The position numbers and the translations under genes are program-made. Shown here piece by piece: positions 1,390 through 19,547 of a stretch of DNA of 24,901 nucleotides. The stretch covers positions 1 to 24,901 of the IMG/VR virus record IMGVR_UViG_3300046369_001109. The stretch is one strand, 5' to 3'. Under the pieces are notes generated by a model that worked only from the letters and a program-made list of their open reading frames with translations, was not told where the DNA came from and did not search any database. The DNA comes from a virus. Position 1 is the stretch's first letter. Each line of letters begins with the position of its first letter.

Positions 1390-1399
1390 ATATAAATAT
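1390..1399 (-). promoter_or_regulatory. Putative late promoter box, copy 1
   Basis: Minus-strand ATATTTATAT, preceded by CT to give TATATTTA, 21 nt upstream of the ATG at 1368 in the 34-nt gap between two genes. The identical 10-mer precedes four other transcription-unit heads here at similar distances. A TTG lies about 19 nt further upstream, which the other copies lack at a consistent place. Function as a late (-10-like) element is inferred. Confidence 0.65.
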
Positions 1400-1402
1400 A
1401 GA

Positions 1403-2539
1403 TTAAGTATCGAAACGAACAATAAAGTTCAAATCATAATCTGGTAAATTCTTTATTGGTGTTGGTAATTTAGCAACTGCTATCATATCACCATCCTTAT
1501 CATATAAACCAATAGTTGTTATATATGTTGATAAATATGAACCTGTTGGGTCTACTGAAGCTGATGAGAAATAATCATCCCAAGAACCACTTACAGTTTG
1601 GTCAACACTACCACTAAAAAATTCTCTTCGTTTTATATCTAAAACTTCTTTAATTTTTTTAGTTCCAGCTGGGAATGAGTTAAATACAGGTGTTGTTTCA
1701 AAGTCATATGAACCACTTAATGTTACTTGAACAGCTGTAGGATTTTGTGAATAGTTAAATTCTCCAGCCTTTACATTAATTAAAACTTCTGTTTCATATA
1801 TTGTTTTTGTACTTCTAAAATCTAAAACATAATTAGAAAATTGAGGAACATTACTAAATACCAACAACCCATCATCATAAAATACATTTCCATATTTTTG
1901 TTCATCTATTGATAAACCATCAAAATCTAAAGGTTGTGATGTTTTTATAATTCCTTGTTGAAAATCAATTCTAACTATTTCTACAACATCAGTATCAGAA
2001 CCAAATGTTAAAGTTGATAATCCAGTATTTAAATCTAAATCAGTTATAGTACCATTAAAAACCTCCCCATCAAAATCACTAATTATAATTTCTCCTGTAT
2101 GGAAGTCGATTGATATTAAGGTATATAATGGAGTATCGGAAACTATGTTACCATGACCATCATCTGCATAAACAGATTCATTATCATTATCTTGTAAGAT
2201 AATTGATTCTTTTTTTAGTTGTTCACCATATAAATTTTGAGGTAGTGCAAGAACATAAACACTATTACCAATATTTCTATCAACTGATAATCTTTGTAAA
2301 TCTTCTATATCACCAAATAGTTCAATAAGAGATACACCTTGATTGTAATACTTGGATTTGATTGAACGATATAAAGAGTGAGTAATTATACCACTTTGTG
2401 AAGTGAAAGTATCGGAATCAAAGAAACCAGTCTCTACTGAGGCAGAAACTATCTCATATTGAGATTGATTAACCTGCCATTTTTTATATACTTCAAAGGC
2501 ACGTCTGTTAACACTTGATTTTTGTATTGTTTTTAACAT
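1403..2539 (-). CDS. Virion structural protein (paralogue A)
   Basis: A 378-residue beta-rich protein. The N-terminal ~110 residues are mixed, with VSLIELFGDIEDLQRLSV near 69-86. A GHGN turn follows, then Thr/Ser-rich beta segments, then GEFNYSQNPT (about 264-273), and a 40-residue C-terminal module (339-378) beginning YITTIGLYDKDGDMIAVAK. The same module, also exactly 40 residues, ends the neighbouring 409-residue protein, so the two are paralogous at least in their C-terminal part. Proteins of this kind sit in the structural cluster of marine T4-like phages, and their exact virion position (tail tip, baseplate periphery or fibre attachment) cannot be read from sequence. AGAGGAG precedes the ATG. 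The gene has its own late-type box (2557-2566) directly after the upstream terminator. Confidence 0.7.
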   Translation of the reverse strand: MLKTIQKSSVNRRAFEVYKKWQVNQSQYEIVSASVETGFFDSDTFTSQSGIITHSLYRSIKSKYYNQGVSLIELFGDIEDLQRLSVDRNIGNSVYVLALPQNLYGEQLKKESIILQDNDNESVYADDGHGNIVSDTPLYTLISIDFHTGEIIISDFDGEVFNGTITDLDLNTGLSTLTFGSDTDVVEIVRIDFQQGIIKTSQPLDFDGLSIDEQKYGNVFYDDGLLVFSNVPQFSNYVLDFRSTKTIYETEVLINVKAGEFNYSQNPTAVQVTLSGSYDFETTPVFNSFPAGTKKIKEVLDIKRREFFSGSVDQTVSGSWDDYFSSASVDPTGSYLSTYITTIGLYDKDGDMIAVAKLPTPIKNLPDYDLNFIVRFDT

Positions 2540-2556
2540 ACTGATATTACTCCTCT

Positions 2557-2566
2557 ATATAAATAT
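2557..2566 (-). promoter_or_regulatory. Putative late promoter box, copy 2
   Basis: Minus-strand ATATTTATAT, 17 nt before the ATG at 2539 and immediately beyond the T-tract of the 2571-2599 terminator, so transcription stops and restarts in about 40 nt. The AGAGGAG ribosome-binding site begins within 2 nt of its downstream edge. The resulting 5' leader would be very short if this is a -10 element. Confidence 0.7.
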
Positions 2567-2570
2567 GTAG

Positions 2571-2599
2571 AAATAAAAAACCCCACTCGAAGTGGGGTT
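2571..2599 (-). terminator. Rho-independent terminator after paralogue B
   Basis: Read on the minus strand: AACCCCACT, TCG, AGTGGGGTT, followed by TTTTTTATTT. The stem is 9 bp with a tight UUCG-type tip and a U-tract with one A interruption. It starts 20 nt after the stop of the 409-residue gene. Its 3' architecture (TTCG, G-rich arm, TTTTTTATT) is the same as in the other terminator of this window. Confidence 0.9.
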
Positions 2600-2619
2600 A
2601 TTTTAAAAATTAAGATATT

Positions 2620-3849
2620 TTAGAAATCAAGTTTAACTTTGATTAAGATTTCTTTATCGAATGATTTAGGGATTGGTTGTGATGTTTTAGCCACTGCAAT
2701 CATTTCATTTGAATCATTATATAAACCAACAGTTGTAATAAATGTTTTAGGGTCTTTCTCAAATGTTGATTCTGAGAATGAACCATCTGAACCTGTTACG
2801 AATGTTGGGTTATTAGAGAAGTTAAATTCTCTATTTGTTGCTCTTATGAAGTAGTGTGAAGTAGAAACATTTTCTGTTCTTCTTGCCTCAAAATCTCCAC
2901 CACCATTTATAGCCTCATGTAATAAGAATTGATTTTTACCTTCATAAGCATTTCCACTATAAAGAGATGCATTTTGAACAGAACCACTATCAATTGATTT
3001 TCCAATTATACTATGAACTGCTACAGGGTTAAGAATTACTAAACCTTGGTCAGGATAAAATAATCCAATACCTTCACCATTTGATGCGGTAAGTGAATTA
3101 ACAGTAGCCTCTGATTCTGAACCTAAGTTCAATGAACCACTACCTACATTAAATATTCTACCAGCCTTACCAACTCTATCTGAGAATTTCTTTCCACTAT
3201 CATCAATAAATGTTGAAATACCATTTGAACCACTTAATTTCAATGACCAGTTTCCTGCATCCATTTTCTCTTTGTATCTGGCACGTGATACATTGATTAC
3301 ATAGATGTCATCTGAATCATGAGTTCCTGCAGCCGATGATGAAACAAATGTAAATTGGTTATCATCTTGGTCTAAAAGAATTGAACGATATTGTGCATAT
3401 GTTGCTTTTGATGCGAGTGTAGATGAATCAGAAACACTTAGTGATACTGAACCACTATTTAATCTGTGTCCATATGATACTGCATATTGTACAGCAGCTG
3501 ATGTATCAGATGCTGGATTTTTATCATATACATTTAAGTAATAGTTTGAACTCGCTGCAACTGCCTGAGTTGATGAAGTAAAGAAAGATGTTAAACTTCC
3601 AGTATCACCACTCCAAAGACCTGTTGTAACAACTTCAACTTTACCACTAATTTGGTCAAACTCTGTAAATCGTTTGTAAACCCCCGTAGTAACATTACCA
3701 CCCTGTCCTGCTAACTTATCACCACCAACAAGATATTGGTTAATGATTGATGCAAGTTGTTCGGAAGTAAGTTGTCCTTGTTGAGCAGATAAATAATTCG
3801 CCAACTCTTGGGTTAAGTTTGCTCCTGCCTGTCCTGAAATTTGTGCCAT
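2620..3849 (-). CDS. Virion structural protein (paralogue B)
   Basis: A 409-residue Ser/Gly/Thr-rich structural protein. It opens with MAQISGQAGANLTQELANYL, a Gln/Ala-rich helical region (1-45). A long beta-rich body follows, containing VSRARYKEKMDAGNWSLKLS (about 192-211). It then has REFNFSNNPT (~338-347) and the 40-residue C-terminal module FITTVGLYNDSNEMIAVAK... (370-409), shared with the 378-residue neighbour. The pattern of fixed ends and divergent middle suggests a common attachment role in the virion, with duplication and divergence. CGGAG precedes the ATG; the gap to the upstream gene is only 18 nt and has no late box, so it is cotranscribed with the 208-residue gene. The unit ends in the strong terminator at 2571-2599. 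Confidence 0.72.
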   Translation of the reverse strand: MAQISGQAGANLTQELANYLSAQQGQLTSEQLASIINQYLVGGDKLAGQGGNVTTGVYKRFTEFDQISGKVEVVTTGLWSGDTGSLTSFFTSSTQAVAASSNYYLNVYDKNPASDTSAAVQYAVSYGHRLNSGSVSLSVSDSSTLASKATYAQYRSILLDQDDNQFTFVSSSAAGTHDSDDIYVINVSRARYKEKMDAGNWSLKLSGSNGISTFIDDSGKKFSDRVGKAGRIFNVGSGSLNLGSESEATVNSLTASNGEGIGLFYPDQGLVILNPVAVHSIIGKSIDSGSVQNASLYSGNAYEGKNQFLLHEAINGGGDFEARRTENVSTSHYFIRATNREFNFSNNPTFVTGSDGSFSESTFEKDPKTFITTVGLYNDSNEMIAVAKTSQPIPKSFDKEILIKVKLDF

Positions 3850-3867
3850 TTTTATATTTCTCCGTTA

Positions 3868-4494
3868 TTAACTTGGTTGTACATATGTTACTGTAACTGG
3901 TATAGATTGTGAACCACCAGTTTCATTACCATAAACCGTAATAGTTGTTTTAATTGTTTCCGTAATATTTGGATTTGGAATAAATGTAAATTCTAATCCT
4001 GTTTCTATTGCCGCAGTTGCAGTTAATTCATCACCTAAGAATGTTGGGGTTGAACCACCTTCTGCTAAACCACTACCAACAATAGAACCTGCATTCTTAT
4101 TAGAAAGAATTACAGTATATCCACTTTGTGTATTACCACTTGGGGAAGTTGTTGGTGAAAGATTTACCTGTCCACCACTTTGAGTTGTAGAAATCGAAGG
4201 GACTCCAAACTCAACTTTAGGAATCTTAGTTGTTCCTTTTGGTAAAGTTACCAATTTGTATCTTAGTACTTGAGTTTCATCTGGTGAAGCTTCAGTAATA
4301 GGTATTGCCTTAATAGAAGCATCATAATAAGCACTTCCTTTTGGATGTGCTGGTTCGTAAAGGGTATAATCAATTTCATCATCACCCAAAGCGAACTTCG
4401 TGATGTTTAAACCTTGTCCAGCTGCTAATTTCTCTCTACCCTTCTTAGTAAGAATCGCATCTACTGTGATTTCGGTGTTATCTAAATAAGCCAT
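3868..4494 (-). CDS. Tail/virion structural protein with conserved 'TVDAILTKKGREKL' start
   Basis: 208 residues. The N-terminus (MAYLDNTEITVDAILTKKGR..., then ITKFALGDDEIDYTLYEP at 31-48) is a pattern I associate with structural proteins of T4-like marine phages: a small globular head domain in which a newly made chain 'KKGREKLAAG' helix precedes an acidic FALGDDEIDY strand. The remaining ~140 residues are Thr/Ser/Gly-rich beta sequence ending in an Ig-like ITVYGNETGGSQSIPVTVTYV segment. No enzyme motif is visible. It is preceded by a late-type box (4525-4534) and an AAGGA ribosome site, and followed after 18 nt by paralogue B. The precise virion role is unknown. Confidence 0.68.
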   Translation of the reverse strand: MAYLDNTEITVDAILTKKGREKLAAGQGLNITKFALGDDEIDYTLYEPAHPKGSAYYDASIKAIPITEASPDETQVLRYKLVTLPKGTTKIPKVEFGVPSISTTQSGGQVNLSPTTSPSGNTQSGYTVILSNKNAGSIVGSGLAEGGSTPTFLGDELTATAAIETGLEFTFIPNPNITETIKTTITVYGNETGGSQSIPVTVTYVQPS

Positions 4495-4524
4495 AATTTA
4501 AATTCCTTGTTAATGTTATTCAAT

Positions 4525-4534
4525 ATATAAATAT
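4525..4534 (-). promoter_or_regulatory. Putative late promoter box, copy 3
   Basis: Minus-strand TTATATTTATAT containing the conserved ATATTTATAT, in the 59-nt gap between the 1786-residue gene and the 208-residue gene, 30 nt before the ATG at 4494. No hairpin terminator is seen in this gap, so the downstream genes could be served both by read-through and by this promoter. Confidence 0.65.
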
Positions 4535-4553
4535 AACTATTTTATAAAATCGT

Positions 4554-7500: not shown

Positions 7501-9914
7501 ATATCTAAATTTTCTAAAGAAAATTCACTTGATGAAACAAACTGTCCAACTACTTCAGTTGATGAGGTTGAACCACTTGCTATTAAATCATCAAGTATTT
7601 GATATCCAATATCATCACCAACATCTAATCCAAAGTTTGGTGTTAATGGAACACAATGTTTAGTTACATCATCTAATATAGTTATTTGGTCTATTAAAGG
7701 TATAGAATGTACCTTAGATATCCATAGTTTATCGTTTGTGTTTACATCAGATGGTAATGGTTCATATAATTTTAAAACAAGTGATTTTTCAATATTTCTA
7801 TATTTCGTTTCATTTGTTTCTTCATCAACATATTTTTCAGAAAAAGTTTTATCATCAATTCCCCATGTACCAATTAACTTATTACTTCCATCTCCGATAT
7901 GAAGATAGTGAGTTAATAATGGTGAGATGAAATCTTCAAAACCAGATTCATCTGCATTAGATATAAAAGCATTCTTTATATCATTTATAACATTTGCTCT
8001 TCTTAATCTTAAATCTCCCTTATCAAATGTTATAGTTGCCTCTTCTGTTTTACCAGGTGTTAATTCATCTCCTTCTTCATTGTAAGGAATAAATAATAAT
8101 TTGAAAACTGATTTATCTCTATCTTGAACTAAACCAGCTCCTATTTTTTGTACGATATCAGCAACATTAAAACTTGCATCTCCTTGTGGAGAAACTTTAG
8201 CAAGAAAGTTCTTATCTGATACTTTATCAACATATATGTGAATGTAGTTTGTATTTATTGATTGCCAAGAAATATCAAAATCTACATTGTATTCTTTAAA
8301 ATCAGCTCCTTTAATATTTTGTGGGAAGTTAATATGTGTAATATCAGGACCAGGTAAATAAGCTCTACTTTCTACTGTTATTACTACTTTTTGGTTTTCA
8401 CCACTACCACCCCTTTTGGATACAGGTTGGAGATATAAAATATATCTACCCACTCCATTTGGAAAATCAGAATTAGTTAAACTAATTACACCACTTGGTT
8501 TTATTTCTCTTACTGTTTTACCTAATGTGTAAATTACTTTATCAGCATATTCTGTTCCATAGGATATGTTTATTGATTTGGAATTAGCTATGTTAAAAAC
8601 TAAATTTCTATTATCAACTTTTATTACAGGAGTAGTTGGGGATGGAACTACTGATTTCTTTACAGCACTAACTTGTATATTATTTTTACCTGGTGCTAGA
8701 TTTATCGTAGTATCAAGACCATTTCTCGATTCGTTTTTAGGTTGAGAAGAACTGTTGAATGTATAATTAACTGTATGAGTATAATCACTAATACCAACTC
8801 CACTAAACTTAACATAACAAGTTGGTTTTTTTCCTTGTTTATTATAAGATAAATTTAATTTACCATCTGTAATATATCCTTCATCACCTTCACTTGTTTG
8901 ATAAAATATTATATCATCAGAACTAACATTTGCACTAATAGAAACATCAAATGAACTTACTATTGGAAGAGGATTTCTTTGTTCAATAGTAAAAAATAAA
9001 TCATATGATAATGCCTTTTTAGGTAAAGTACCTCTTAGTAATGTAGGTTTTAAATCACTACTGTTTAATTTAACTATCTTAAATTCACCATCTTCAAATT
9101 TCTTTTCAATTTTAACTTCATAGTATTTGAATTCAAAAGTTCCAAAACTTAATGCAGGTTTTACAAATGTTGGTGCTGGAATAAATGGTGCTATACCAAG
9201 AGTAGGTCTTACAGTACCTCTATTGTAATCTATTTGTGGAATTTTAGTATTTCCAAATCCACCTAAACCAAATAGTGGGTTTCTTCGATTACTACCACCA
9301 AAGATATTTCCCATAGGAAAGTTTGGTCTGAATCCTACATCCTTACTGAATTTTATTCTATCTTGGAAATCCGCAAGAACTTGGTCATTATCAAAATCTT
9401 TTGGAATTACAGGTTTTATTGTTTTTGAGTTTGTTTTTTGTATAGCACTAACTCTATATGTTTCTTTGGCCTGTGATTTATCTCCACCTAAAACAGTTAT
9501 AGTTTTTGGTGATAATAATTCTTTTTCAGTAAATTGAAGAACTCCTCTTTTCTTTGAAGTTATCGCCTTACCATCTACTAATACAGAAGAAGATTTACCA
9601 CCATCTACTTTAATGTTTAGTAAAACAGTTCTACTTTTTTCTTTAACAACAGGTAGTGGCGGTGGATTATAAACACAACTTCCATTATCTCGTGTTGCAT
9701 TTCTATTATAATTTTTGGCCTTTGGGTCAGTACATCCTTGTATTACTGTACTACCACCCCCACCTCGTGAGATACTTCCTCCTCCACCTCCGTTAAATCT
9801 GATATCTTCGAGAAGGACATCTTGCCTACCACGGTCTATTCCATTGTCGAATCCATCATTGAATCCATCATTGAAATTTTCATCGTATATTCCAAATTCT
9901 CTTCTTCTAGCCAT
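4554..9914 (-). CDS. Giant tail/baseplate protein with LamG-like lectin domain and repeats
   Basis: 1786 residues, the largest gene here. In order: a charged head with NDGF repeats (13-26); two Gly runs (42-46, 51-54); a GCTDPKAKNYN...GSCVY Cys motif (60-82); Ser/Thr-rich Ig-like beta domains (~95-620); a region with NDKLWISKVHSIPLIDQI (~723-740) resembling the 635-residue neighbour; a helical stretch (~960-1100) with conserved-looking Trp/Tyr. A LamG/concanavalin-like sandwich (~1105-1300) follows, with SSVDEFRLWTTALSQSKI near its end. Then comes a helical segment ending VPARAKVSSGLLIEPHI (~1475-1495), four 19-residue repeats (1507-1582), and a beta-rich tail. LamG folds bind glycans, so a host-surface role is likely. 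The start overlaps the previous stop (TAATG), implying translational coupling. It is probably a baseplate-linked adhesin; it could also be a peripheral baseplate wedge component. Confidence 0.75.
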   Translation of the reverse strand: MARRREFGIYDENFNDGFNDGFDNGIDRGRQDVLLEDIRFNGGGGGSISRGGGGSTVIQGCTDPKAKNYNRNATRDNGSCVYNPPPLPVVKEKSRTVLLNIKVDGGKSSSVLVDGKAITSKKRGVLQFTEKELLSPKTITVLGGDKSQAKETYRVSAIQKTNSKTIKPVIPKDFDNDQVLADFQDRIKFSKDVGFRPNFPMGNIFGGSNRRNPLFGLGGFGNTKIPQIDYNRGTVRPTLGIAPFIPAPTFVKPALSFGTFEFKYYEVKIEKKFEDGEFKIVKLNSSDLKPTLLRGTLPKKALSYDLFFTIEQRNPLPIVSSFDVSISANVSSDDIIFYQTSEGDEGYITDGKLNLSYNKQGKKPTCYVKFSGVGISDYTHTVNYTFNSSSQPKNESRNGLDTTINLAPGKNNIQVSAVKKSVVPSPTTPVIKVDNRNLVFNIANSKSINISYGTEYADKVIYTLGKTVREIKPSGVISLTNSDFPNGVGRYILYLQPVSKRGGSGENQKVVITVESRAYLPGPDITHINFPQNIKGADFKEYNVDFDISWQSINTNYIHIYVDKVSDKNFLAKVSPQGDASFNVADIVQKIGAGLVQDRDKSVFKLLFIPYNEEGDELTPGKTEEATITFDKGDLRLRRANVINDIKNAFISNADESGFEDFISPLLTHYLHIGDGSNKLIGTWGIDDKTFSEKYVDEETNETKYRNIEKSLVLKLYEPLPSDVNTNDKLWISKVHSIPLIDQITILDDVTKHCVPLTPNFGLDVGDDIGYQILDDLIASGSTSSTEVVGQFVSSSEFSLENLDINYVDTTKIVSGSILVDTTYDYNWKDFVKYSSAEERVHNFYYKIKLINQYESRYDLLTSGSEWTGSVSVRNEAKLQQEKVNDLKKGFDSFEQFLFTSSSADTLTYPKTDNTGSIINALSSSAVSWYNGAVESARIFDDNNTSRFTYNLPHHIQNDDKGQEFVLFFDMIGQHYDIIWTHIKGFSQSKKLEHKYQDGITNDLVYHMLESLGWDADMGVQSQLLWEYAFGKHSDGSIVSEMSGKDRQSEVWRRILNNLPYLYKNKGTKRALHAAMSCYGVPASLLTVMEFGGPKDPTSSGTTKFTFEDRTASINISGSQSIDIPWKQYSGTSEHPNSVEIRLNTEHKQDQQIISGSNWSLNLLTDTGSHARVELVVGSQSSSTDPMPIYNDEYTQIVVNRTTGSSDVFDVFVKEGFQERIRNEVSASLTTSEKGWTSGSYISIGGSNILSSVDEFRLWTTALSQSKIENHTLLPDAIDGNHVSSSTEDLIFRLDFEYPKNRTDVASGGDPFIKNVSINRSYNESYVTASNFDNISSYPYHYTPYDRTVTADVPSSGFNVGNKLRFETQTKISNLSYRQRATRKSYDQSPIDSDRLGLFFSPIKEINMDIIKSLGEFSIDNYIGNPQDEYSDEYSELRQLRNYYFDRFNLNLYEYIQLVRYIDKSLFETLESLVPARAKVSSGLLIEPHILERNKTKWNRPQGENKQYESIIDVEEDISLNSTNPQYTMSLDVENVVSLESDNIQYESLITAESDINLDSEIKNYESSIDAESDVSLLGEMTVNSGSTMGGIDFTINTKELGSSRVKQFESSKLESIGMEDDSISRLGFGLYGENGSAQRTFIDKSGNTKKERVKIYLLKQSYTEDVPQNIDSNDSSRGVELVTQTKYRYKVNILPFTGSDGNETSSSVVGDIVEATPLDGYFPSHYRNVGDLTSGLENSFFNGSKQTSATTLDGSSPVQTFTTNPNTLKVSDSGRGSGEPILEVD
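5169..5396 (-). repeat. Four tandem 57-nt (19-residue) coding repeats
   Basis: Inside the giant tail protein, residues 1507-1582 divide into four units of exactly 19 residues. They begin QYESIIDVEEDISL, QYTMSLDVENVVSL, QYESLITAESDINL and NYESSIDAESDVSL, each followed by five variable residues. The consensus is (Q/N)YxSxIDxExDxSL. Conservation is at protein level; the DNA units have diverged, so this is an old, selected repeat, not a recent slippage product. It is acidic and probably forms repeated beta-hairpins or a short fibrous stalk. Confidence 0.85.
9750..9797 (-). repeat. Glycine-codon-rich tract
   Basis: The start of the giant tail protein has two Gly runs (residues 42-46 and 51-54) coded by GGT/GGA triplets, immediately before the Cys motif. 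A 12-nt unit (aatccatcattg on the plus strand, around 9848-9872) is duplicated nearby and encodes NDGF NDGF. These low-complexity stretches look like flexible linkers that could vary in length by triplet or 12-nt slippage without breaking the frame. Confidence 0.6.
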
Positions 9915-11821
9915 TATCTTATATTCCTTGTAAGTTCTGCTGGTCTATTAGCCCCACCATATCTAGCATCTACTGATTCAGGTCCATCAAATTCGTTTCG
10001 AATGAATTCGAAAGAACCTCCTCCTCCTCCACCTCCACCACCTCGTGGTGTTGATGCGATAGGAATTATATTTGGAGTTGGTGCTGGTGTTGGTGTAACA
10101 CTACATGAACCAAGTCCAGTTGATATCAAACCATTTGGTAAAACTAAACTATTAACTTGAGCACATATTGTTGTAGTTCCACCTGGTTGAATTACACCAC
10201 TTGTTTTAATATTACCAAGTGCATCCTTATACTTAAATGTTAATGGATTGCCTCTATATATAGGAAATGGTCTTTCATCATAATATCTCTCTCCATATCT
10301 GATTTCATCATATGGTCCTCTTCCAAAACTATCTCTATTACCAAATCCAGTACCTCGATACTCATCACCAGGATATCTATTCATAAATACAGCAGGTGGT
10401 TGTAATACTTTACTTCTACTTTGATTCGTTATTTTAAAACTAGCCATTATTGGTTTTGGAACTCGTATCTTAGGAACTTCTCTTACATCACCTTTAAATT
10501 TAAATGAACCAACATCATGTGTGATGTTAAATGAATCGAATTCAATTCCACTCTTACTTCCACCTGGTTGACCATTTATTTTCCATTTCATTTCTGCCGT
10601 TGATGACCAAACATAGTATTTAGCTGTTTTAGTTGGATTTACATTTTTATATTCACAACTACCATCATCTTTAGTAGCCTGTGGATTGTAATTTAATGCC
10701 GATGAATCTGTACATCCCGCTACTTCAATTTCTTCTACCTCTTCAGGATATTTACAAGTACCATTATCTTCTCTTGCTTTTGGATTGTAGTTTAATGCAT
10801 TTCTATCCATACACCCTCTAATAACAGCATCAACTTTATTTGGTTCAGTTGATTTATATATGTTATCAGAAACAGATGATTTTAATATCTGTTTTACCTC
10901 ATCAAAAGTTACTTGTTGTTCTGGTGTTAATTCGTTTTGTTCTTGTATATTTCTTTTTGGTAAATAAAATTCAATTACATTTCCAAGTGATTGTTCAATT
11001 ACAAGATTAATATCATCTATTGATAATTGAATCACATCTAATTGATTTGTGGGTTTACCATAATTTAAATCAAATATATTCCACTGTCTATCATCAATAA
11101 AATATTCTATCGATTCAATAAACTTTTCTCTAATTCTATTGATAAGAAGTTCTACACTATCTATTTTAAATTCTTTTCTTATCAATCCATGGTATATTTC
11201 AGTATCCTTTTGTTTACCTTTTATTCTTGAAAAGAAATCTAAAACCTTTTTTGTTGTAATATTTTGAATATATTGTTTAGCATAATATATAGTATCATCT
11301 CTAAACTGTTTTTCTTCAGTAAAGGTTTCATATCTTTTTTCTAAATCAAGATTTGGATTGTTTGAATTCTTAATCGGTAATACTCTTATTTCTGTTCTAC
11401 TCGGTGATATCTCATGAATCCAAAGTTTATCAGTATCACTATTTTCTTTACCAGCTCTTCTGTTAAGTAAGGTTACTTGAGTTTTAAATATTCCACTTGA
11501 GTACCCAGCCTCTCTAATTAGTTTTTCAATATCAACTATAAATTCTGAGGCTCCATTTAGTTTTTTAGTAAAGTTATTTTCAGAAATTATAAAGTACTCT
11601 GATATATTTTTTTCATCTAAACTTATATATCTTACTAATTTACCATCTTCACCTTGAGGCAATTGATTCTCTGATGCATCAAATAATATGAATTCAATCA
11701 TATCTGCATTACCAAGACCAAAGTAAGATTTACCGATTTCTTTCTCGAAGATTTTTCTATCTTCAGATTCAACCTTATATCCTCTTCTTTCTATTATGTC
11801 TTTGAATCCCTTAATTGCCAT
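9914..11821 (-). CDS. Baseplate-type structural protein with two GCTD Cys motifs and poly-Gly tract
   Basis: 635 residues. Residues 1-150 form a beta-rich domain with IEFILFDASENQLP (42-55) and TDKLWIHEISPSRTEIRVLP (130-149); the DKLWI element recurs in the giant neighbour. Residues 165-320 are mainly helical. Two Cys motifs follow, GCMDRNALNYNPKAREDNGTCKY (336-358, quoted in part as GCMD...GTCKY) and GCTDSSALNYN...GSCEY (369-391). Then come an Ig-like segment, an Arg/Tyr/Gly-rich stretch, and nine consecutive Gly (594-602) before the C-terminus. The gene lies directly upstream of, and overlaps by TAATG, the giant tail protein, and its start overlaps the coiled-coil gene by 11 nt. A role as a baseplate wedge/fibre-network component is inferred from position after gp25 and gp6; no named T4 homologue is recognised. 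Confidence 0.68.
   Translation of the reverse strand: MAIKGFKDIIERRGYKVESEDRKIFEKEIGKSYFGLGNADMIEFILFDASENQLPQGEDGKLVRYISLDEKNISEYFIISENNFTKKLNGASEFIVDIEKLIREAGYSSGIFKTQVTLLNRRAGKENSDTDKLWIHEISPSRTEIRVLPIKNSNNPNLDLEKRYETFTEEKQFRDDTIYYAKQYIQNITTKKVLDFFSRIKGKQKDTEIYHGLIRKEFKIDSVELLINRIREKFIESIEYFIDDRQWNIFDLNYGKPTNQLDVIQLSIDDINLVIEQSLGNVIEFYLPKRNIQEQNELTPEQQVTFDEVKQILKSSVSDNIYKSTEPNKVDAVIRGCMDRNALNYNPKAREDNGTCKYPEEVEEIEVAGCTDSSALNYNPQATKDDGSCEYKNVNPTKTAKYYVWSSTAEMKWKINGQPGGSKSGIEFDSFNITHDVGSFKFKGDVREVPKIRVPKPIMASFKITNQSRSKVLQPPAVFMNRYPGDEYRGTGFGNRDSFGRGPYDEIRYGERYYDERPFPIYRGNPLTFKYKDALGNIKTSGVIQPGGTTTICAQVNSLVLPNGLISTGLGSCSVTPTPAPTPNIIPIASTPRGGGGGGGGGSFEFIRNEFDGPESVDARYGGANRPAELTRNIR
10017..10045 (-). 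repeat. GGN microsatellite encoding nine glycines
   Basis: On the plus strand this is a run of CCT/CCA triplets (cctcctcctcctccacctcc...), read on the minus strand as nine successive Gly codons (GGT/GGA) at residues 594-602 of the 635-residue protein. The run stands out in an AT-rich genome. It is the sort of trinucleotide tract that changes length in frame, and it lies next to the C-terminal 33-residue tip. Confidence 0.75.
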
Positions 11822-13061: not shown

Positions 13062-13062
13062 G

Positions 13063-14124
13063 TTATTTCTCTACTGTAAATGTTAAATCTTTATCTTTAA
13101 AATATTCTATAACACCACTTCTATTTACTTTTATTTCAATATAATAATCTCTATTATATTCCCAATTTGTTAAATTTAATTTAAAGTAGTTACCACTCGA
13201 ATCACAACTTACTTTTGTAAAGTTTGAGAATGGTACAATTATCTCATCTGTTACAACATCTCTAATTTGATAATGTGTTGTTGATGGTAAATATTTTACA
13301 TCTTGATAAGAAAATGTATTGGTGTATGTTTTAAGAGGATATTTTTCTCTTCCATAAACTCTAATCGTAGGTTTACTTGCTAGTTTATATCTACTCTTCA
13401 ATCTTTTAAATGTTACTATGATATCATCCGAAGTTAATTCTGTTAAAGAACCAGTAGAGAAAGATGAATCATCCCAACCAATTCTAACTTTAGGTTGGTA
13501 TATTGTATTTGTTTCTTTTGAAAAGAACTTTAATTGACCATAATCTTCAGTATCATTTTCTAAAGATGATGTGTACTTTAATATAAATCCTTCATTTGGT
13601 AATGTTCCACCAACCCACTCATCCATAGTACCTTTGATATCCATTTCGATATCAGCTGATTCATATGAAAAAGATTGTGTTGAATATGAACCTGTGAACC
13701 ATGTTCCTCCTTTACCATTGAAAGAACCAGTTGTATCAGATGAATGATTATTAAGTGATAACCAATTCTGTCCTGTTCTTACCGAGTTCCAAGATACACC
13801 ATCAGTAGATATTTCATCAAACCTTGTTCCAATTCCCATATCCCACGATTGTGTTACTGCATATGCATATATCGTGTAATCAACTGGTATTTCTGATGTT
13901 TCACATTCACGAAGAATTAATTCAGCTGAAGTCATTGTTACCTCACCACTTGATATTGATTGAGAAAGTGGAGTAGTTTCAAACTTAATTAAACTATGAG
14001 CAATATCTTTCAAACTACCATAGTAAGTTTTAGATACTTCTAATATTTCATCTAAACCTGTATTCTGTGTTGGTTGTTGTAAATAGATTGTTGAATCTTT
14101 TGATGCTGTTAAAAAGTAATACAT
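13063..14124 (-). CDS. Virion protein with DNRLRE-like beta-sandwich
   Basis: 353 residues. The first ~200 residues fit a DNRLRE-type carbohydrate-binding-like sandwich: KDSTIYLQQPTQNTGLDEIL at 9-28, SAELIL (65-70), a VTQSWDMGIGTR strand (~89-100), GVSWNSV and a Trp-rich GGTWFTG turn, and a closing EWVGG...GFILKYTSS strand. DNRLRE domains usually occur in secreted bacterial surface proteins. The C-terminal part is another beta domain ending DKDLTFTVEK. The start codon overlaps the gp6 stop (TAATG). Position directly after gp6 suggests a baseplate component that may be exposed and sugar-binding. The DNRLRE assignment is by pattern only and should be treated as moderate. Confidence 0.65.
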   Translation of the reverse strand: MYYFLTASKDSTIYLQQPTQNTGLDEILEVSKTYYGSLKDIAHSLIKFETTPLSQSISSGEVTMTSAELILRECETSEIPVDYTIYAYAVTQSWDMGIGTRFDEISTDGVSWNSVRTGQNWLSLNNHSSDTTGSFNGKGGTWFTGSYSTQSFSYESADIEMDIKGTMDEWVGGTLPNEGFILKYTSSLENDTEDYGQLKFFSKETNTIYQPKVRIGWDDSSFSTGSLTELTSDDIIVTFKRLKSRYKLASKPTIRVYGREKYPLKTYTNTFSYQDVKYLPSTTHYQIRDVVTDEIIVPFSNFTKVSCDSSGNYFKLNLTNWEYNRDYYIEIKVNRSGVIEYFKDKDLTFTVEK

Positions 14125-16139
14125 TATACAACCCTCCCTTTTATATCCTTGTTAGGAAATTTAACTTCGAAAACAGAAGGGTCTAATGATGGATACACCA
14201 TCTTACCTTTTGTTGCTCCTTGTATATCATACGAATGTTCAGAGTACTGTCCTAAACATTTATTAATAATTTCACATTTAGGTACTGATTGAACTCCTTC
14301 TACATTTGCTATTAAGATTTCAACTTCTGAAATGTTAATAGGCATATTGAATGTCCAATTATCTATATTAAAATATTCTTTTAATCCATTGATACATTTT
14401 GTTAAAACTTCTCTTTTATTATATCCACCATAAACTCTTATTTCAAAATCCAATCCTATGTTGATAACAAATCCATCAATTAAGTTTATACCATCTGTTA
14501 GTAATCTATATTCACTTAAGTATGTTTTCAAGTTTTCTTTTACAGCTCTGTTTAAAGATGTTAGATACTTACTTGAATTATATCCAAGAACATATAAGTT
14601 AATAGCAAATGGATTATTCTTTTCATTAATATTATTTTTCTTACCAGATAAGAATGTTCTAACCTCATCTTTTATTTCTTGTTCAGTTGAGTTTGATTCT
14701 TTTAATGATTGTACCAATCCTGCAAATTCTTCAAGAGAATCAGGATTATTTAATATTGAACTTGGTGAATTATTATCTAACTCACCATCTGGTGCACAAT
14801 AAGCTTTAGCAACACCACCAAACTTTGGAGGTAATGAAAGTGCTCTTACAACATAATCTTTTCTTGTTACTGCTCTATTTTGTGAACCGAAGTTTGCAAG
14901 TGAGTTTTCTCTAATCTCATCGATAGTTTCAGAACCTCTACCACCAGTTGCTGGCATTTCATTATCAACCGCAACAGAAGATTTCATTCTGTTATATAAA
15001 GTTAAATCATCTCCTACAAATGTTTTTACATCATCATCAAATTCTATTCTTTGAATAGTTGTAAGTTCACCCTTACCAACATTTGATTCTACTCCACCAC
15101 CAATTAAATATGAAACAGTAAATTCTCCAGTCGGTGCCTGTCCATATGTTTTTGTTTTTAAAAAGTTTGATGGGTCAAATGAAGAACCCAATCTATCAAT
15201 AGATGAGTTTAACCCCAATCCTACATTTTTAAAATTAGGAATTAGTGTTTCATCATTAGTTGAAGTACCTCCACCAAATACTATTGTTGTTGTATTATCA
15301 CCATTTACTTTTGTAGTGAATCTTCTCGATGTTTTAACTAATTGTAAAACATTTGATACTGAATCTTTAAATTGTGAAAGGTCTTTATCTTTTTGTTCTG
15401 ATATAGGATAATCAACATATACCATTTCTTGTGCAAGGTAAGGTACTTGATACCACTTATTACCATTTGAATCTCTTACATCGTAAATATCAATTACATT
15501 TGTATCTGCTATTTCTAATTTTGAAAAGTTATTTGGTGTACTACCAAAATTAAAAGATACTTCTCTTAACTCTGCAGATAATGCATTTACTTTTTTCTTT
15601 ATAAGATATTGAGTAGGTTCACCACCAGAATCTCTTTCATATATTGTAATCTCTCTATCAGTTTCATCATTAAAATCTACCAACTCACTTGTTCTAAATT
15701 GAGTACTTGTTTTGGAAGATTCGATTACCATACCTTCTTTTATTCTTAAGTAAAAATCAGAATCGGGTCTGTTTTCTTCTCCTGTTCCAGTAGATGGTAC
15801 TAACTGATAAACAGTTACTTCACATAAAGCGGGTGAAGTTGTTTTCGGTTTATATCCTAAGTATTGTGCTAATGCTATAACATTTTCTTTATCTTCTGCA
15901 TATAACATTAAAGATTCTTTTAAAGAATCATCTGTATAGTAAGAAAGAATATCACCAACATACGAAGCCATTTCTATGAACATCATACCTGGTGATGTTT
16001 CATTAAAATCAGAATAACTTTTTGGGAAATATGTTTTAGCGTACTCAATTAAGTTTCCTCTAAATTGAGAGAAATCTTTAGCAAGATATTTTATATTTCT
16101 TCCGTTATTACTTTTAAAGTTTGCTGAATTTAATGCCAT
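14124..16139 (-). CDS. 6: Baseplate wedge subunit gp6 (baseplate J-like)
   Basis: 671 residues, matching the T4 gp6 size class. The N-terminus has the family pattern: YLAKDFSQFRGNLIEYAKTY (19-38) and then FNETSPGMMFIEMASYVGDI (44-63), followed by LSYYTDDSLKESLMLYAE and the ALAQYLGYKPKT segment near 90-100. The C-terminal half has LKENLKTYLSEYRLLTDGINLIDG-like and INISEVEILIANVEGV elements typical of baseplate J domains. gp6 forms the heterotrimeric wedge core with gp7 and joins gp25 and gp53 in the T4 baseplate. It starts 1 nt after the gp25 stop, as in many T4-like phages, and ends in a TAATG overlap with the next gene. Confidence 0.92.
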   Translation of the reverse strand: MALNSANFKSNNGRNIKYLAKDFSQFRGNLIEYAKTYFPKSYSDFNETSPGMMFIEMASYVGDILSYYTDDSLKESLMLYAEDKENVIALAQYLGYKPKTTSPALCEVTVYQLVPSTGTGEENRPDSDFYLRIKEGMVIESSKTSTQFRTSELVDFNDETDREITIYERDSGGEPTQYLIKKKVNALSAELREVSFNFGSTPNNFSKLEIADTNVIDIYDVRDSNGNKWYQVPYLAQEMVYVDYPISEQKDKDLSQFKDSVSNVLQLVKTSRRFTTKVNGDNTTTIVFGGGTSTNDETLIPNFKNVGLGLNSSIDRLGSSFDPSNFLKTKTYGQAPTGEFTVSYLIGGGVESNVGKGELTTIQRIEFDDDVKTFVGDDLTLYNRMKSSVAVDNEMPATGGRGSETIDEIRENSLANFGSQNRAVTRKDYVVRALSLPPKFGGVAKAYCAPDGELDNNSPSSILNNPDSLEEFAGLVQSLKESNSTEQEIKDEVRTFLSGKKNNINEKNNPFAINLYVLGYNSSKYLTSLNRAVKENLKTYLSEYRLLTDGINLIDGFVINIGLDFEIRVYGGYNKREVLTKCINGLKEYFNIDNWTFNMPINISEVEILIANVEGVQSVPKCEIINKCLGQYSEHSYDIQGATKGKMVYPSLDPSVFEVKFPNKDIKGRVV

Positions 16140-16140
16140 C

Positions 16141-16578
16141 TTAATTTGTTCCTTGTACTGTAAATGTTAATTCTTGTAAATCAATTTGATTACCAACAGT
16201 AAACTCTAAACTTAAGTTTACCCTATTTTGGTCTTTCAATTCGTTTGTCATTTCTACATCAATATTTTTAATAGAAATATATGGTAACCAATAATTAACA
16301 TTTTTGGTTATTGTTTCTTGTATCTTTTGTTCAAAAGTATCATCAATCTGTTCAAATAATAAAGATTGTAATCCTGTTCCGAAGTTTGGTTGCATTATTC
16401 TCTCACCTTTTTTAGTAAGTAAAAGATTCTTTAAATTTGATTTAGCTTGTTCATAAGAAGTAAATGCTTGTTCAAAAAATCCAGTTTCACCATTCTTTAT
16501 AGGCAATGTAATACCATATGCAAAAGAATCAAAATCTTCTGTATCTTTCAGTACCTTTCTACCGATTACATATGCCAT
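16141..16578 (-). CDS. 25: Baseplate wedge subunit gp25 (GPW/gp25 family)
   Basis: 145 residues, the normal length of gp25. The core motif NLLLTKKGERIMQPNFGTGL (51-70), then LLFE (73-76), is the characteristic LLxTxxGERxxxPxFGxxL...LFE of the GPW/gp25 family, which is universal in contractile tails and type VI secretion sheath-baseplate complexes. gp25 links the wedge to the first sheath ring and starts sheath polymerisation. TAGGAG lies just before its ATG, and the TAG of that site is the stop codon of the 24-residue peptide upstream, so the two are tightly linked. It is followed after 1 nt by gp6. Confidence 0.95.
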   Translation of the reverse strand: MAYVIGRKVLKDTEDFDSFAYGITLPIKNGETGFFEQAFTSYEQAKSNLKNLLLTKKGERIMQPNFGTGLQSLLFEQIDDTFEQKIQETITKNVNYWLPYISIKNIDVEMTNELKDQNRVNLSLEFTVGNQIDLQELTFTVQGTN

Positions 16579-16588
16579 ATCATTTCTC

Positions 16589-16663
16589 CTATTTAAATAA
16601 GTTTTGGATTATAGTGATTATTAAAATAATTCCCATTACCACTATAATCAATCCACTTACCAT
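16589..16663 (-). CDS. 24-residue single-pass membrane micropeptide
   Basis: A 25-codon frame in the otherwise unexplained 84-nt gap between the 196-residue gene and gp25. The ATG at 16661-16663 overlaps the preceding TAA by one base (TAATG), exactly like four other junctions here. It reads MVSGLIIVVMGIILI... and ends ...QNLFK followed by TAG. Residues 3-19 are almost entirely Ile, Val, Leu, Met, Gly and Thr, giving one hydrophobic helix with a Lys at the C-terminus. The stop TAG lies inside the TAGGAG ribosome-binding site of gp25. It has no Shine-Dalgarno of its own and would rely on coupling. Function is unknown; it may be a membrane-active peptide, or mainly a coupling device for gp25. 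Confidence 0.6.
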   Translation of the reverse strand: MVSGLIIVVMGIILIITIIQNLFK

Positions 16664-17253
16664 TATCTCTTAAACTTTTTTACAAGTTCGGAATTATCTC
16701 TGTTTAAAATTCTATCTAAACCAGGTAATCCTGTTTTTACTCCAAGGCCTGTTTTACTAACACTACCTTGGTTTACACTACCATAACCCATTTGTGCAGC
16801 CATATTTGCTCTCATACCTTCCACTCCAGCACCAGCACCTTGTTCTGTAAAGGTAACTGTTTTATCCATACTTTCTTGGATAGGTTGTTGGGGTAACTTA
16901 TCTAATACAGATTTAGTACCACCAGCTCCACCTTGTCTCTGTTCTTTTGTAAATGGTTTTGTATTATTCAATACTTCATTTAAAACAGAATTTTTAGTAA
17001 ATTGTTTTTTTGGTGCTTGTCTTTGTTCCTGTAATGCAAGTTCTGCCTGTTCAAATGGGTCTACCTCATTCACTAACTGTGGAACTTGCGTAGAGGGAAC
17101 GCTGACTACACCTCCCTTCTCCTCTGCTAATCGTTTCTTAACTTCCTCTTCCAATATCTTTGGAAAGGTTTTAGTAAGAAACCTCTCATGTTTTTTAGCA
17201 ACTTCTGCCTCAACAATGGTTTTGATAACTTTTACTAATTGTTTTGAATCCAT
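16663..17253 (-). CDS. Gln/Gly-rich structural-cluster protein, unknown
   Basis: 196 residues. The first ~45 are a Lys/Glu-rich helix (VVKVIKTIVEAEVAKKH-type, ending LEEEVKKRLAEEKGG). A low-complexity Gln/Pro/Gly middle (~55-160) follows, then a short ordered C-terminus TGLPGLDRILNRDNSELVKKF (173-194, given in part). The helix-linker-short-tail design looks like a scaffold or minor virion protein that anchors by its ends. It begins the gp25-gp6 group, has a late-type box 23 nt upstream (17277-17286), no clear Shine-Dalgarno, and ends in a TAATG overlap with the 24-residue peptide. I recognise no named family. Confidence 0.65.
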   Translation of the reverse strand: MDSKQLVKVIKTIVEAEVAKKHERFLTKTFPKILEEEVKKRLAEEKGGVVSVPSTQVPQLVNEVDPFEQAELALQEQRQAPKKQFTKNSVLNEVLNNTKPFTKEQRQGGAGGTKSVLDKLPQQPIQESMDKTVTFTEQGAGAGVEGMRANMAAQMGYGSVNQGSVSKTGLGVKTGLPGLDRILNRDNSELVKKFKR

Positions 17254-17276
17254 TTTATTTAATTTAGTTTATCTTA

Positions 17277-17286
17277 ATATAAATAT
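17277..17286 (-). promoter_or_regulatory. Putative late promoter box, copy 4
   Basis: Minus-strand ATATATTTATAT including the conserved ATATTTATAT, in the 46-nt gap before the 196-residue gene and 23 nt from its ATG at 17253. It would head the gp25-gp6 transcription unit. No terminator separates it from the preceding gene. Confidence 0.65.
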
Positions 17287-17299
17287 ATTATTATCAATT

Positions 17300-17863
17300 T
17301 TATGGTATTGTAAATCCCGTCCAAGTTAAGATACCAGGTGCAGGTGGTATAAGTGGGAATCCTGGATACATTGATATTGTTATGTATAATCCACTAACTG
17401 TTGTAAGATGCATTTGCATTGCCATTATCAATCTATCCAAAAACATATTAATATCAGTAGTAGGTATTAGTGGGCCGACCGGTGTCCAAGTACCAGGGTT
17501 TAAAGTAAAGGCAGCGGTTGATGTTATATTTTGTATTGCACCAATTGATGGTATAATTGGTGGTATTCCTGTCAATAGTGTTGCACCTGTCCAATAACCA
17601 ACACATCCCTTTCCAATATCATCTATAAAATTATGATAACCACTTTTCTTACTTAGTGCTTTAGCACAAGCTAGTGTTACCAAAATCTTCATTAAAGATT
17701 TGTTCGGACTAGAAAGTGGGATATTGTTTATAGTTTGCATTCCACTACGAGCCGCTATATCATATTCATCGGTAATTTTTTTCGCAAAGTCTTTATATGA
17801 ATCTATACCTTCAGGTCGATTCATGTACATAAACATATTTGATTTAAATAAAGCAAATGACAT
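17300..17863 (-). CDS. Virion-cluster protein with hydrophobic Pro/Gly-rich C-terminal half, unknown
   Basis: 187 residues. The first ~75 residues are soluble and helical (KDFAKKITDEYDIAARSG near 24-41; LMKILVTLACAKALSKKSGY near 57-76). From ~85 onward the chain is unusually hydrophobic and rich in Pro, Gly, Thr and Ile: GYWTGATLLTGIPPIIPSIG, PGTWTPVGPLIPTTDI, and a C-terminal SMYPGFPLIPPAPGILTWTG. These are too rich in Pro to be ordinary membrane helices and more like a tightly packed beta or polyproline structure. CGGAG precedes the ATG. The gene lies 4 nt after the spike gene, so a role near the tail spike or hub is plausible, but no family is recognised. Confidence 0.65.
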   Translation of the reverse strand: MSFALFKSNMFMYMNRPEGIDSYKDFAKKITDEYDIAARSGMQTINNIPLSSPNKSLMKILVTLACAKALSKKSGYHNFIDDIGKGCVGYWTGATLLTGIPPIIPSIGAIQNITSTAAFTLNPGTWTPVGPLIPTTDINMFLDRLIMAMQMHLTTVSGLYITISMYPGFPLIPPAPGILTWTGFTIP

Positions 17864-17867
17864 TAGT

Positions 17868-19106
17868 TTACTCCGTAAAGTTTAATGTAGATAAAATAGT
17901 ATCTAACTTATTCGATATTCCTGCATATGCTGATGCGTTTGATGGTGGAGCTGATGGTCCTGCTGGTGTTGGATGTATTTCTTTCTGAAGTTCTGAACAA
18001 AGGTCTTTTAGTAAATCAACTAAAACCTGTCCTCTTACTAATGGTTGTTCATCCGATTCTGTGTTAAGGTAAATTTCTCCACTACTGGCCAAAAACTTCA
18101 TATCATTATCATTGGTAGTAATCAATAAATCACCATTCAAATCAATTGAAGCACCATCATTACCATTATCAATTGTAAGTTTACCATCAGATATAAATGA
18201 ATAATCTCCCTTAGAGTAAAATATCATTTCAGAATCTTTTGCTGATAAAATAATTCTACCACTATTAACCAATACTTGGTCTGTACCTTTTAGTTCATCA
18301 GGTGGAGTGTGATATATTGGTTCGGTATCAAATGGTGAATCTTCTGTTCCTGGTACAAAGTTTAATAAGTACTCTCCACTTGTTATTGCTATAGTAGAAC
18401 CATCTTCAACAATATCTTCTTCAGTATGTTGATACTCTTTTAACTCATCAAATGATTTTGGATTTTGTTTATTTCTAATTATTATAGTAGGAGCTAAAAT
18501 GTTTTCATCATTATTATATCCACTAAATCTAATCGATTGTCCAAATCGAGATTGAATTAATTTATCACCTTCATATAATCGTAATGGGTTTATTTGATTC
18601 TTTTCAAAATACTCACCGAACTTAGTTGTTCTATCTCCTTCATCAGAAGAGTTAGCCGTACCTGTTTGTGATGTGGTTGAATAATCTTTACTACCACCTC
18701 CAGATTCCTCATCAGGCAATCCTCTTAATAATGCATCTTCAACAGCATTACCAGCATTTAAATTTATATTTGGAATTCTCTTATAAGCAAGTTTACCTCC
18801 CACTTCTACCAACTGAACAGTTTCTCCAAGTAGTGGGATTCCCTCATCAGGATTTGATGGTGGATATTCTGGTATATTATTTACATTATAAGTAGATTCA
18901 CCTCTTTGTACAATTTTACAATATCCAATTACAAATTGTTTATCATGTACTTTATCTGTTAAATCACTTGGCAGTTCTAATGGTTCTGCTTCAGAATCAT
19001 CAAGGTGTACAAATATAACTGTACCAACTCTTGAATTAGCTCCTTCATAAAGTTTCTTTCCTTTATTAGAATAAAAACTACTATTTGATATTGAAGTTCT
19101 ACCCAT
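17868..19106 (-). CDS. gp5/VgrG-like baseplate central spike protein
   Basis: 412 residues. Residues ~24-115 resemble an OB-fold (SRVGTVIFVHLDD, FVIGYCKIVQRG, GETVQLVEVGG). A low-complexity Gly/Ser/Asp linker (130-165) follows. Then LIQSRFGQSIRFSG (183-196), a hallmark of phage gp5-type spikes, precedes a repeated beta pattern (278-350: SGRIILSAKDSEMIFYSKG, GASIDLNGDLLIT, SGEIYLNT) typical of the VgrG/gp5 triple-stranded beta-helix. T4 gp5 carries a lysozyme domain between OB-fold and helix; none is visible here, so this is a spike without built-in peptidoglycan hydrolase. The C-terminus is a short helical extension. It starts by a TAATG overlap with the 136-residue gene. The family call is fairly strong. 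Confidence 0.8.
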   Translation of the reverse strand: MGRTSISNSSFYSNKGKKLYEGANSRVGTVIFVHLDDSEAEPLELPSDLTDKVHDKQFVIGYCKIVQRGESTYNVNNIPEYPPSNPDEGIPLLGETVQLVEVGGKLAYKRIPNINLNAGNAVEDALLRGLPDEESGGGSKDYSTTSQTGTANSSDEGDRTTKFGEYFEKNQINPLRLYEGDKLIQSRFGQSIRFSGYNNDENILAPTIIIRNKQNPKSFDELKEYQHTEEDIVEDGSTIAITSGEYLLNFVPGTEDSPFDTEPIYHTPPDELKGTDQVLVNSGRIILSAKDSEMIFYSKGDYSFISDGKLTIDNGNDGASIDLNGDLLITTNDNDMKFLASSGEIYLNTESDEQPLVRGQVLVDLLKDLCSELQKEIHPTPAGPSAPPSNASAYAGISNKLDTILSTLNFTE

Positions 19107-19516
19107 TACTTAGATACCTTTTGTTTAAGTTCTTCTATTTCGTTTGTAAGTTCATCAACCTTTAAATCTTGTTCATCTGCAACTTCAGCAATTGTTTCAT
19201 CTAATTGTTTTAGAAGTTGTTCCTTTTCATCATCCGATAGGAATCCTGTATCACCTTCTACCTTATCCTTAGATGCAATCATTCTTTGTGCAATAGAGGC
19301 CATCTTAATTAGTGATTCATCGTTTCTTACTGAAGTATCAACTAAATCTTTTATGATTGGCCCAATCACTGCCATATCACCAGAATGTCTAATTACCTTT
19401 TTCATTTCAGAAATTAATTCTGAGATTCTTTGTTTTTTATTCTGTTGGTTATCGTAGATATCCTTAAACAATCCACTTAAATCTTTACCAGGAAATAATT
19501 CAAAATTTGTACTCAT
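19106..19516 (-). CDS. Small helical virion-associated protein
   Basis: 136 residues, almost entirely helical. It begins MSTNFELFPGKDLSGLFKDI, continues NKKQRISELISEMKKVIRHS, then AVIGPIIKDLVDTSVRND, and ends in a Glu/Lys-rich coiled coil (about 95-136). I recognise this as a type of small protein found at the head of the baseplate cluster of T4-like phages of marine bacteria, but know no demonstrated function. It is the first gene after a terminator and a late-type box (19538-19547), with no Shine-Dalgarno, and ends in a TAATG overlap with the spike gene, so it likely serves or accompanies spike/hub assembly. Confidence 0.68.
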   Translation of the reverse strand: MSTNFELFPGKDLSGLFKDIYDNQQNKKQRISELISEMKKVIRHSGDMAVIGPIIKDLVDTSVRNDESLIKMASIAQRMIASKDKVEGDTGFLSDDEKEQLLKQLDETIAEVADEQDLKVDELTNEIEELKQKVSK

Positions 19517-19537
19517 GATTATACCATATTATGTTGT

Positions 19538-19547
19538 ATATAAATAT
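19538..19547 (-). promoter_or_regulatory. Putative late promoter box, copy 5
   Basis: Minus-strand CCATATTTATATAC with the conserved ATATTTATAT, 21 nt before the ATG at 19516 and directly downstream of the T-tract of the 19549-19581 terminator. It would be the first promoter of the virion module. Confidence 0.7.

Follow-up and report, generated by a model that had tools for sequence, protein, structure and literature searches.

A conserved box ahead of virion genes of contractile-tail phages is a candidate late promoter element, probably read by a diverged gp55-like sigma factor

The virus record IMGVR_UViG_3300046369_001109 was analysed as a single window of 24,901 bases, which is the whole record. 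It is part of a contractile-tail phage encoding gp25-like and gp6-like wedge proteins, a lysozyme-like protein, a carbamoyltransferase, and a peptide deformylase. The long reading frames lie on the minus strand, which is therefore the coding strand. The ten-base box ATATTTATAT occurs five times in the window, always on the minus strand, with no other copy on either strand. All five copies are intergenic and located 17–30 nucleotides (nt) ahead of a start codon; calculated from the coordinates, the distance to the ATG is 17 nt for gene 1403–2539, 21 nt for genes 1186–1368 and 19106–19516, 23 nt for gene 16663–17253, and 30 nt for gene 3868–4494. The original prediction, which considered the box a phage late promoter, had given the same positions, shared orientation, intergenic location, and spacing, and all of them were confirmed. 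The features concerned are as follows.

1390–1399, minus strand: candidate late box heading gene 1186–1368 (60 amino acids)
2557–2566, minus strand: candidate late box heading gene 1403–2539, directly after a terminator-like hairpin
2579–2599, minus strand: hairpin resembling an intrinsic terminator, upstream of the box at 2557
4525–4534, minus strand: candidate late box heading gene 3868–4494
14124–16578, minus strand: genes for gp6-like and gp25-like baseplate wedge proteins, which follow the box at 17277 and identify the virion module
17277–17286, minus strand: candidate late box heading gene 16663–17253
19538–19547, minus strand: candidate late box heading gene 19106–19516, directly after a terminator-like hairpin
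19558–19581, minus strand: hairpin resembling an intrinsic terminator, upstream of the box at 19538
21733–22461, minus strand: gp55-like late sigma factor of diverged sequence, which is proposed to read the box and resembles gp55 and sigma region 2 in profile and model comparisons

The number of copies exceeds the expectation by chance. One hundred shuffles of the window contained 0.82 copies of ATATTTATAT on average and four at most, and none reached five. For the coding strand of the 19 intergenic gaps (1,002 bases in all), a first-order model predicts 0.05 copies of ATATTTATAT and 0.35 copies of the shorter form TATTTATA, and five were observed in each case. The reverse complement TATAAATA does not occur on the coding strand of these gaps. 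Two 10-mers have at least five coding-strand copies in the window, and ATATTTATAT is the only one that is always found in gaps. The original prediction also placed two of the boxes right after terminators. Terminator-like hairpins are present at both sites; however, the two scans for such hairpins gave totals near those of shuffled sequence (3 versus 3.9, and 6 versus 3.8), and the scan alone is therefore weak evidence for both of them.

Related loci were collected from IMG/VR with protein 21733–22461 (best 80 of 530 relatives) and with the gp25-like protein (best 80 of 106), one locus being common to both sets. Loci in which at least 20% of sampled 40-mers had already been seen were dropped, which left 78 loci including the window, referred to here as the window clade. 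These loci contain 133 copies of ATATTTATAT, of which 122 lie in the gap ahead of a same-strand gene, five in other gaps, five within genes, and one before an opposite-strand gene. The original prediction held that a promoter should not be as common within genes or on the opposite strand as in gaps before genes, and the distribution agrees with this expectation. Permuted A/T 10-mers do not display such preference for gaps and strand. Whole records are also biased in the strand of the box, for example 28 versus 3 in the 288-kilobase (kb) phage G002, although the reversed pattern that served as the control in these counts is not independent, because TATATTTATAT contains both patterns.

A second set of loci was found with an alignment headed by the sigma factor of the cultured Flavobacterium phage immuto, and 72 of the 80 loci remained after deduplication. 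The sigma factors of this immuto clade are 35–42% identical to that of the window. The box of the immuto clade is [A/C]TATTTATA: among 113 sites, the first base is C in 58% and A in 36%. The unit conserved among relatives is TATTTAnA preceded by A or C, rather than the exact 10-mer. As judged from single-base variants, TATTTA is required together with the A that follows after one further base, and this intervening base is loose. A sequence logo of 153 sites contains no strongly conserved upstream block that could represent a -35 element.

The distance from TATTTATA to the start codon is most commonly 20–24 nt in the window clade (76 of 163 sites) and 10–14 nt in the immuto clade (45 of 113), where 34 more sites have a spacing of 0–4 nt, some of which probably reflect miscalled starts. 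Downstream of the last A of TATTTATA, purines are found at 4 and 5 nt in 93% and 91% of window-clade sites and in 75% and 94% of immuto-clade sites. This peak hints at a possible start site closer to the box than the 7–10 nt suggested by the original prediction. It is a hint only, since the leaders are A-rich and the position 9 nt after the box is a purine in 90% of window-clade sites as well. Two further features of box surroundings were observed. The leader at 19517–19540 of the window (TACAACATAATATGGTATAATC), between the box and gene 19106–19516, is conserved in many relatives beyond the needs of the box itself. In seven of 40 sites listed (L004:6081, L008:4880, L011:11691, L021:12517, L022:4701, L023:3418, and L026:10888), a conserved stretch with TTAACA/TAACA repeats lies ahead of the box, and the small gene that directly follows has a strong ribosome site of the AAGGAGG or AGAGG type; such boxes may be a subclass subject to additional control.

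The box is retained at the starts of orthologous genes. It precedes 62 of 63 window-clade orthologues of gene 16663–17253. For gene 19106–19516, it is present ahead of all 48 orthologues in the window clade and of 52 of the 65 in the immuto clade. The single orthologue in immuto has the box both for this gene and for gene 3868–4494, and the single orthologue in phage Mel-JY01 lacks it in both cases. The orthologue starts of genes 1186–1368, 1403–2539, and 2620–3849 were not located. Internal starts of the window clade lack the box: it was found at none of the starts of the gp25-like (0/71), gp6-like (0/68), g187 (0/58), g353 (0/56), g416 (0/34), and gp5-position (0/29) genes. The exceptions among internal starts are gene 9914–11821, with one box in 22 orthologues, and the carbamoyltransferase gene, with 18 in 48. 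Some of the latter may be coding coincidences, because three visible sites lie 3–6 nt before the start, inside the end of the preceding gene.

The genes behind the box are biased towards virion functions. In immuto, TATTTATA was scanned for 4–35 nt upstream of starts, and virion blocks were defined by us from the annotation (78.9–101 and 114–160.4 kb). The box is upstream of 22 of 233 plus-strand starts, 16 of them among the 64 starts of the virion blocks and six among the 169 others (p = 4e-6). One of the six non-virion starts (43413) is followed by endolysin and holin genes. Phage G002 contains 89 copies of TATTTATA, 36 of which precede same-strand genes (34 on the plus strand) and 18 of which lie elsewhere outside genes. 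Among 25 scanned box-headed proteins of G002, four match virion, tail, or connector families, two DNA-metabolism families, three other named families, and three only families of unknown function; the remaining 13 have no match. Fifteen of the 28 listed G002 proteins headed by host-type boxes were scanned, and seven have DNA-metabolism matches, including helicase, primase, DNA polymerase, and polymerase processivity factor. None of the 15 matches a virion family; one matches a methyltransferase, one matches only a family of unknown function, and six have no match. Gene 27095 of G002 has both types of box upstream.

Other phages were scanned for comparison. A 49-kb late region of T4 contains seven clear coding-strand cases of TATAAATA and no clear case of TATTTATA; five more cases are ambiguous between divergent genes. 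In 50 kb each of crAss001 and phi14:2, TATTTATA precedes a gene in none of 11 and none of 18 copies. Mel-JY01 has 13 copies before a gene, two on the opposite side, and 48 elsewhere. As a separate observation, the recorded host of Mel-JY01 (PP395634.1; L161, L165–L167) is Microcystis elabens; the regions upstream of its genes show enrichment of TATATTTG and CGTATATT, both similar to Bacteroidota promoters, and the relatives of its sigma and baseplate proteins are in Flavobacterium phages. The host label may be worth checking.

The same phages carry a second class of promoter-like sequence. Host-type TTTCGTATNTTTG boxes are located ahead of replication genes and of the sigma operon, and two of them are in the window.

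154–163, minus strand: host-type promoter box CGTATATTTG, heading a primase gene that is truncated at the end of the window
23376–23385, minus strand: host-type promoter box CGTATATTTG, before the lysozyme-like gene heading the run of lysozyme-like, g91, and sigma genes

The cut primase gene product is 68% identical over 44 amino acids to a protein matching the DNA primase PHROG. In the window clade, TTTCGTAT occurs in 60 upstream stretches versus one for its reverse complement. Of 20 orthologues of the lysozyme-like gene that opens the sigma run, 19 have CGTATNTT upstream. The late-type box was found ahead of none of the orthologues of the sigma gene in two sets (0/46 and 0/66). Therefore, the sigma gene is not itself under the box. 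A further group of sequences was noticed in immuto (NC_055915.1, L162), where 11 near-identical copies of ATATTTAGGTATCAATAATTAAAA(C) at 67,635–72,934 and 73,824 lie, nearly all, 15–25 nt before small genes of unknown function; they are probably a separate early promoter class.

The presence of host-type boxes bears on whether the late-type box might itself be a weak promoter of host sigmaA, made late by an activator rather than by a phage sigma factor. The sigmaA -7 element of Bacteroidota is TAnnTTTG (PMC9723704), and TATATTTA fits it except for the last G. The two share the TTT run, and in the window clade also the TA before it. They differ in that the late-type box has A in place of the final G, and the host-type boxes of these phages, with which it coexists, are preceded by a conserved TTTCG, which the late-type box lacks. 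This reading was first favoured from the window clade and was weakened by the immuto clade, in which C precedes TATTTATA in 58% of the 113 sites, so that TATTTA and the later A persist and TA is mostly lost. We consider a host sigmaA promoter improbable.

The candidate reader of the box is protein 21733–22461. Its relationship to gp55, the late sigma factor of T4, emerges from profiles. Single-sequence scans gave no family match, and comparison with the PHROG late sigma model phrog_234 gave none at E 10; the immuto sigma matched that model with E 0.5 over residues 5–116. Profiles of the new sigmas matched a T4-type gp55 set weakly (E 0.0056 and 0.17). Against a broad gp55 set, which adds members from cyanophages and from Pelagibacter, Vibrio, and Pseudomonas phages, the values were 2.4e-5 and 8.5e-5, versus 0.11 and 0.18 for reversed-profile decoys. 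When a new-sigma profile was searched against 834 other open reading frames and 11 gp55s, the six top outside matches were gp55s (E 0.0045 to 0.46), and the reverse search ranked two new sigmas first. The structural model (mean predicted local distance difference test score 78) resembles sigma region 2 with an extra C-terminal helical part, and T4 gp55 is its best row in the VIA comparison (Z 10.4, root-mean-square deviation 5.6, 120 residues). Modelled alone, the C-terminal part matches region 4 chains with Z 4.3–4.9; unrelated rows score equally high, and the best Foldseek match has E 3.3. Sequence searches of solved structures retrieved no match, one of them yielding two weak unrelated rows only. 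Pattern search of the genome contig collection found no sigma relatives, and the Mel-JY01 sigma has no close relatives in IMG/VR. Protein 21733–22461 thus shows sequence homology to gp55 over the sigma region 2 part and can be described as a diverged, gp55-like sigma factor.

The C-terminus of most window-clade sigmas is a variable tail that includes an aromatic pair, for example FW. This ending recalls the clamp-binding tail of gp55 and is missing from the immuto protein. Clamp genes were sought through PHROG matches, because the search with PF02916 was silent in 15 records and in controls alike and is thus uninformative. Matches to the T4-like clamp loader are strong in G001, G002, and Mel-JY01, and G002 also has a clamp-like gene.

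It is conceivable that the box is a promoter read by another phage factor and that the gp55-like protein has a different role. The assignment of reader to box is based on homology and co-occurrence, and LR756508, which encodes a relative of the sigma, has no visible box. However, the gp55-like protein is present in both box-bearing clades, in immuto, and in Mel-JY01, and most members keep acidic residues at positions aligned with the clamp-helix contacts of gp55: in a joint alignment of 21 gp55s and 44 new sigmas, 39 of 44 new sigmas are acidic at Glu70 and 39 of 44 at Asp74 (0/44 at Glu77), and Tyr97 is conserved in all 44. Recognition by another factor appears about as improbable as a host promoter. 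Least probable of all is a function in RNA or DNA other than that of a promoter, such as a translation enhancer, an mRNA processing site, or a protein-binding site in the leader, which would suit an A/T-rich box near start codons but conflicts with its absence from internal starts of the same operons, its single reading direction, and its location directly after terminator-like hairpins in two cases.

The alignment also shows where the new sigmas part from gp55. In the T4 complex, gp55 flips -12A (Tyr97), -9A (Asn13 and His95), and -8A (Thr99) (PMC7892883). Asn13 is present in 21 of 21 gp55s and in none of the 44 new sigmas, which have G, T, P, or D instead, with the N-terminal register at this position uncertain by one residue because of a gap close by. 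At Thr99, the ten window-clade sigmas have Thr, and the remaining 34 have Gln, Gly, or Ser. The position of His95 is Phe or Tyr in the new sigmas. It was dropped as a marker of change, since Phe also occurs in six of seven divergent gp55s (those of four cyanophages, Pelagibacter phage HTVC008M, and pf16), and only Asn13 was retained.

The core TATTTAnA differs from the T4 box TATAAATA in the two central bases, TT for AA. If TATATTTA is laid on T4 positions -13 to -6, the changes fall at -9 and -8, -13 is loose, -12 is A or C, and the purine peak comes to +1/+2. If TATTTATA is laid on the same positions, the changes fall at -10 and -9. We lean towards the first register. Both registers place an A-to-T change at -9, where Asn13 is absent. 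The change at -9 and the loss of Asn13 may be regarded as one evolutionary contrast, short of proof. We speculate that the gp55-type sigma of Bacteroidota phages switched its preference from A to T at the flipped -9 base, and perhaps at -8, through replacement of Asn13, and that the result is a naturally co-evolved pair of sigma and promoter, whose box combines the T4 late form and the TTT of the host -7 element; this idea is tentative, and we would not put it at even odds.

Comparison with described late promoters leads to a two-sided result. Late promoters read by gp55 have the form TATAAATA in T4 and CTAAATA in Aeh1, with A in T4 and C in Aeh1 at -12 and a loose -13 (PMC2988020, PMC1524935), and NATAAATA is reported for cyanophages such as S-PM2 (PMC2984593). 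The new box shares with the T4 late promoter a short -10-type element, the lack of a -35 element, the position ahead of virion genes, and a co-encoded gp55-like sigma. The A or C before TATTTA recalls the difference between T4 and Aeh1 at -12, and the loose base before it recalls -13. Unlike the T4 promoter, the box has central TT rather than AA and also requires the base two after TATTTA, and unlike T4 gp55, the new sigma lacks Asn13 and has the extra C-terminal helical part. [A/C]TATTTAnA matches none of the T4-type consensus forms TATAAATA, NATAAATA, and CTAAATA. A T4-type late promoter also has its start roughly one helical turn past the box, and gp33 and the gp45 clamp act as activators alongside gp55. 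The sequence evidence gives good support to a late promoter that would work like that of T4; by its consensus, the box is not a T4 late promoter. The original prediction related the box to T4 through its reverse complement. Letter by letter this is correct, but two A-to-T changes at the centre of a box on the same strand give a simpler account.

Several observations weigh against a late promoter read by the gp55-like sigma. The copies of TATTTATA in immuto number 30 on the plus and 15 on the minus strand (15 of 45), and the major capsid gene of this phage has no box directly upstream. In G002, 35 of the 89 copies lie inside genes, and four of 30 whole records have equal box counts on both strands. 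LR756508 shows no box enrichment in 140.6 kb despite its sigma relative, with TATTTATA before one of 109 starts and the reverse complement before one, nor any clear late motif in this sequence; therefore, either LR756508 has a different box or sigma and box are not paired in every phage. The Z score of 10.4 for the sigma model is below the caution level of about 13 that the tool gives for helical bundles and is reachable by chance, and Foldseek lists T4 gp55 with E 2.1 and has no match at or below 0.001. The clamp loader was not found among the PHROG matches of immuto.

The position of the box, its strand bias, its conservation at orthologous starts, the bias towards virion genes, and the co-encoded gp55-like sigma nevertheless agree with the late promoter, differing from that of T4, that was originally proposed. 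We conclude that the box is very probably the -10-type element of a T4-like phage late promoter, read by the diverged gp55-like sigma of the phage. The sequence evidence comprises these features together with the sigma homology and the difference in pocket residues; from it we infer the timing, the recognition of the box by the sigma, the start site, and any role of a sliding clamp. The host polymerase with its own sigmaA would first read the host-type TTTCGTATNTTTG boxes, and this early transcription would supply the replication proteins and the gp55-like sigma (21733–22461). The phage sigma on the host core polymerase would then read [A/C]TATTTAnA without a -35 element, and transcription would begin a few bases downstream of the box, giving a short leader ahead of the virion genes. 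This mode would be that of T4 gp55 on TATAAATA, except that T replaces both central A's and the base pocket of the sigma is altered along with them. Accessory genes are also present among the virion genes of the window (20017–21726, 603–1157, 23917–24534, and 167–640), namely those for a NolO-like carbamoyltransferase, a sulfotransferase, a peptide deformylase, and a SegE-type GIY-YIG endonuclease.

Among the titles and abstract openings covered by our search, which left bioRxiv and most subscription journals outside, none dealt with this box or with mapped late promoters of these phages. The box offers a promoter code that can be tested across a large, mostly uncultured group of aquatic phages with the cultured relative immuto, and late genes could be proposed from sequence alone. 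It may also represent a natural experiment on the joint change of the flipped-base pockets of a sigma factor and of its promoter, in a phage lineage that uses a polymerase of different promoter grammar.

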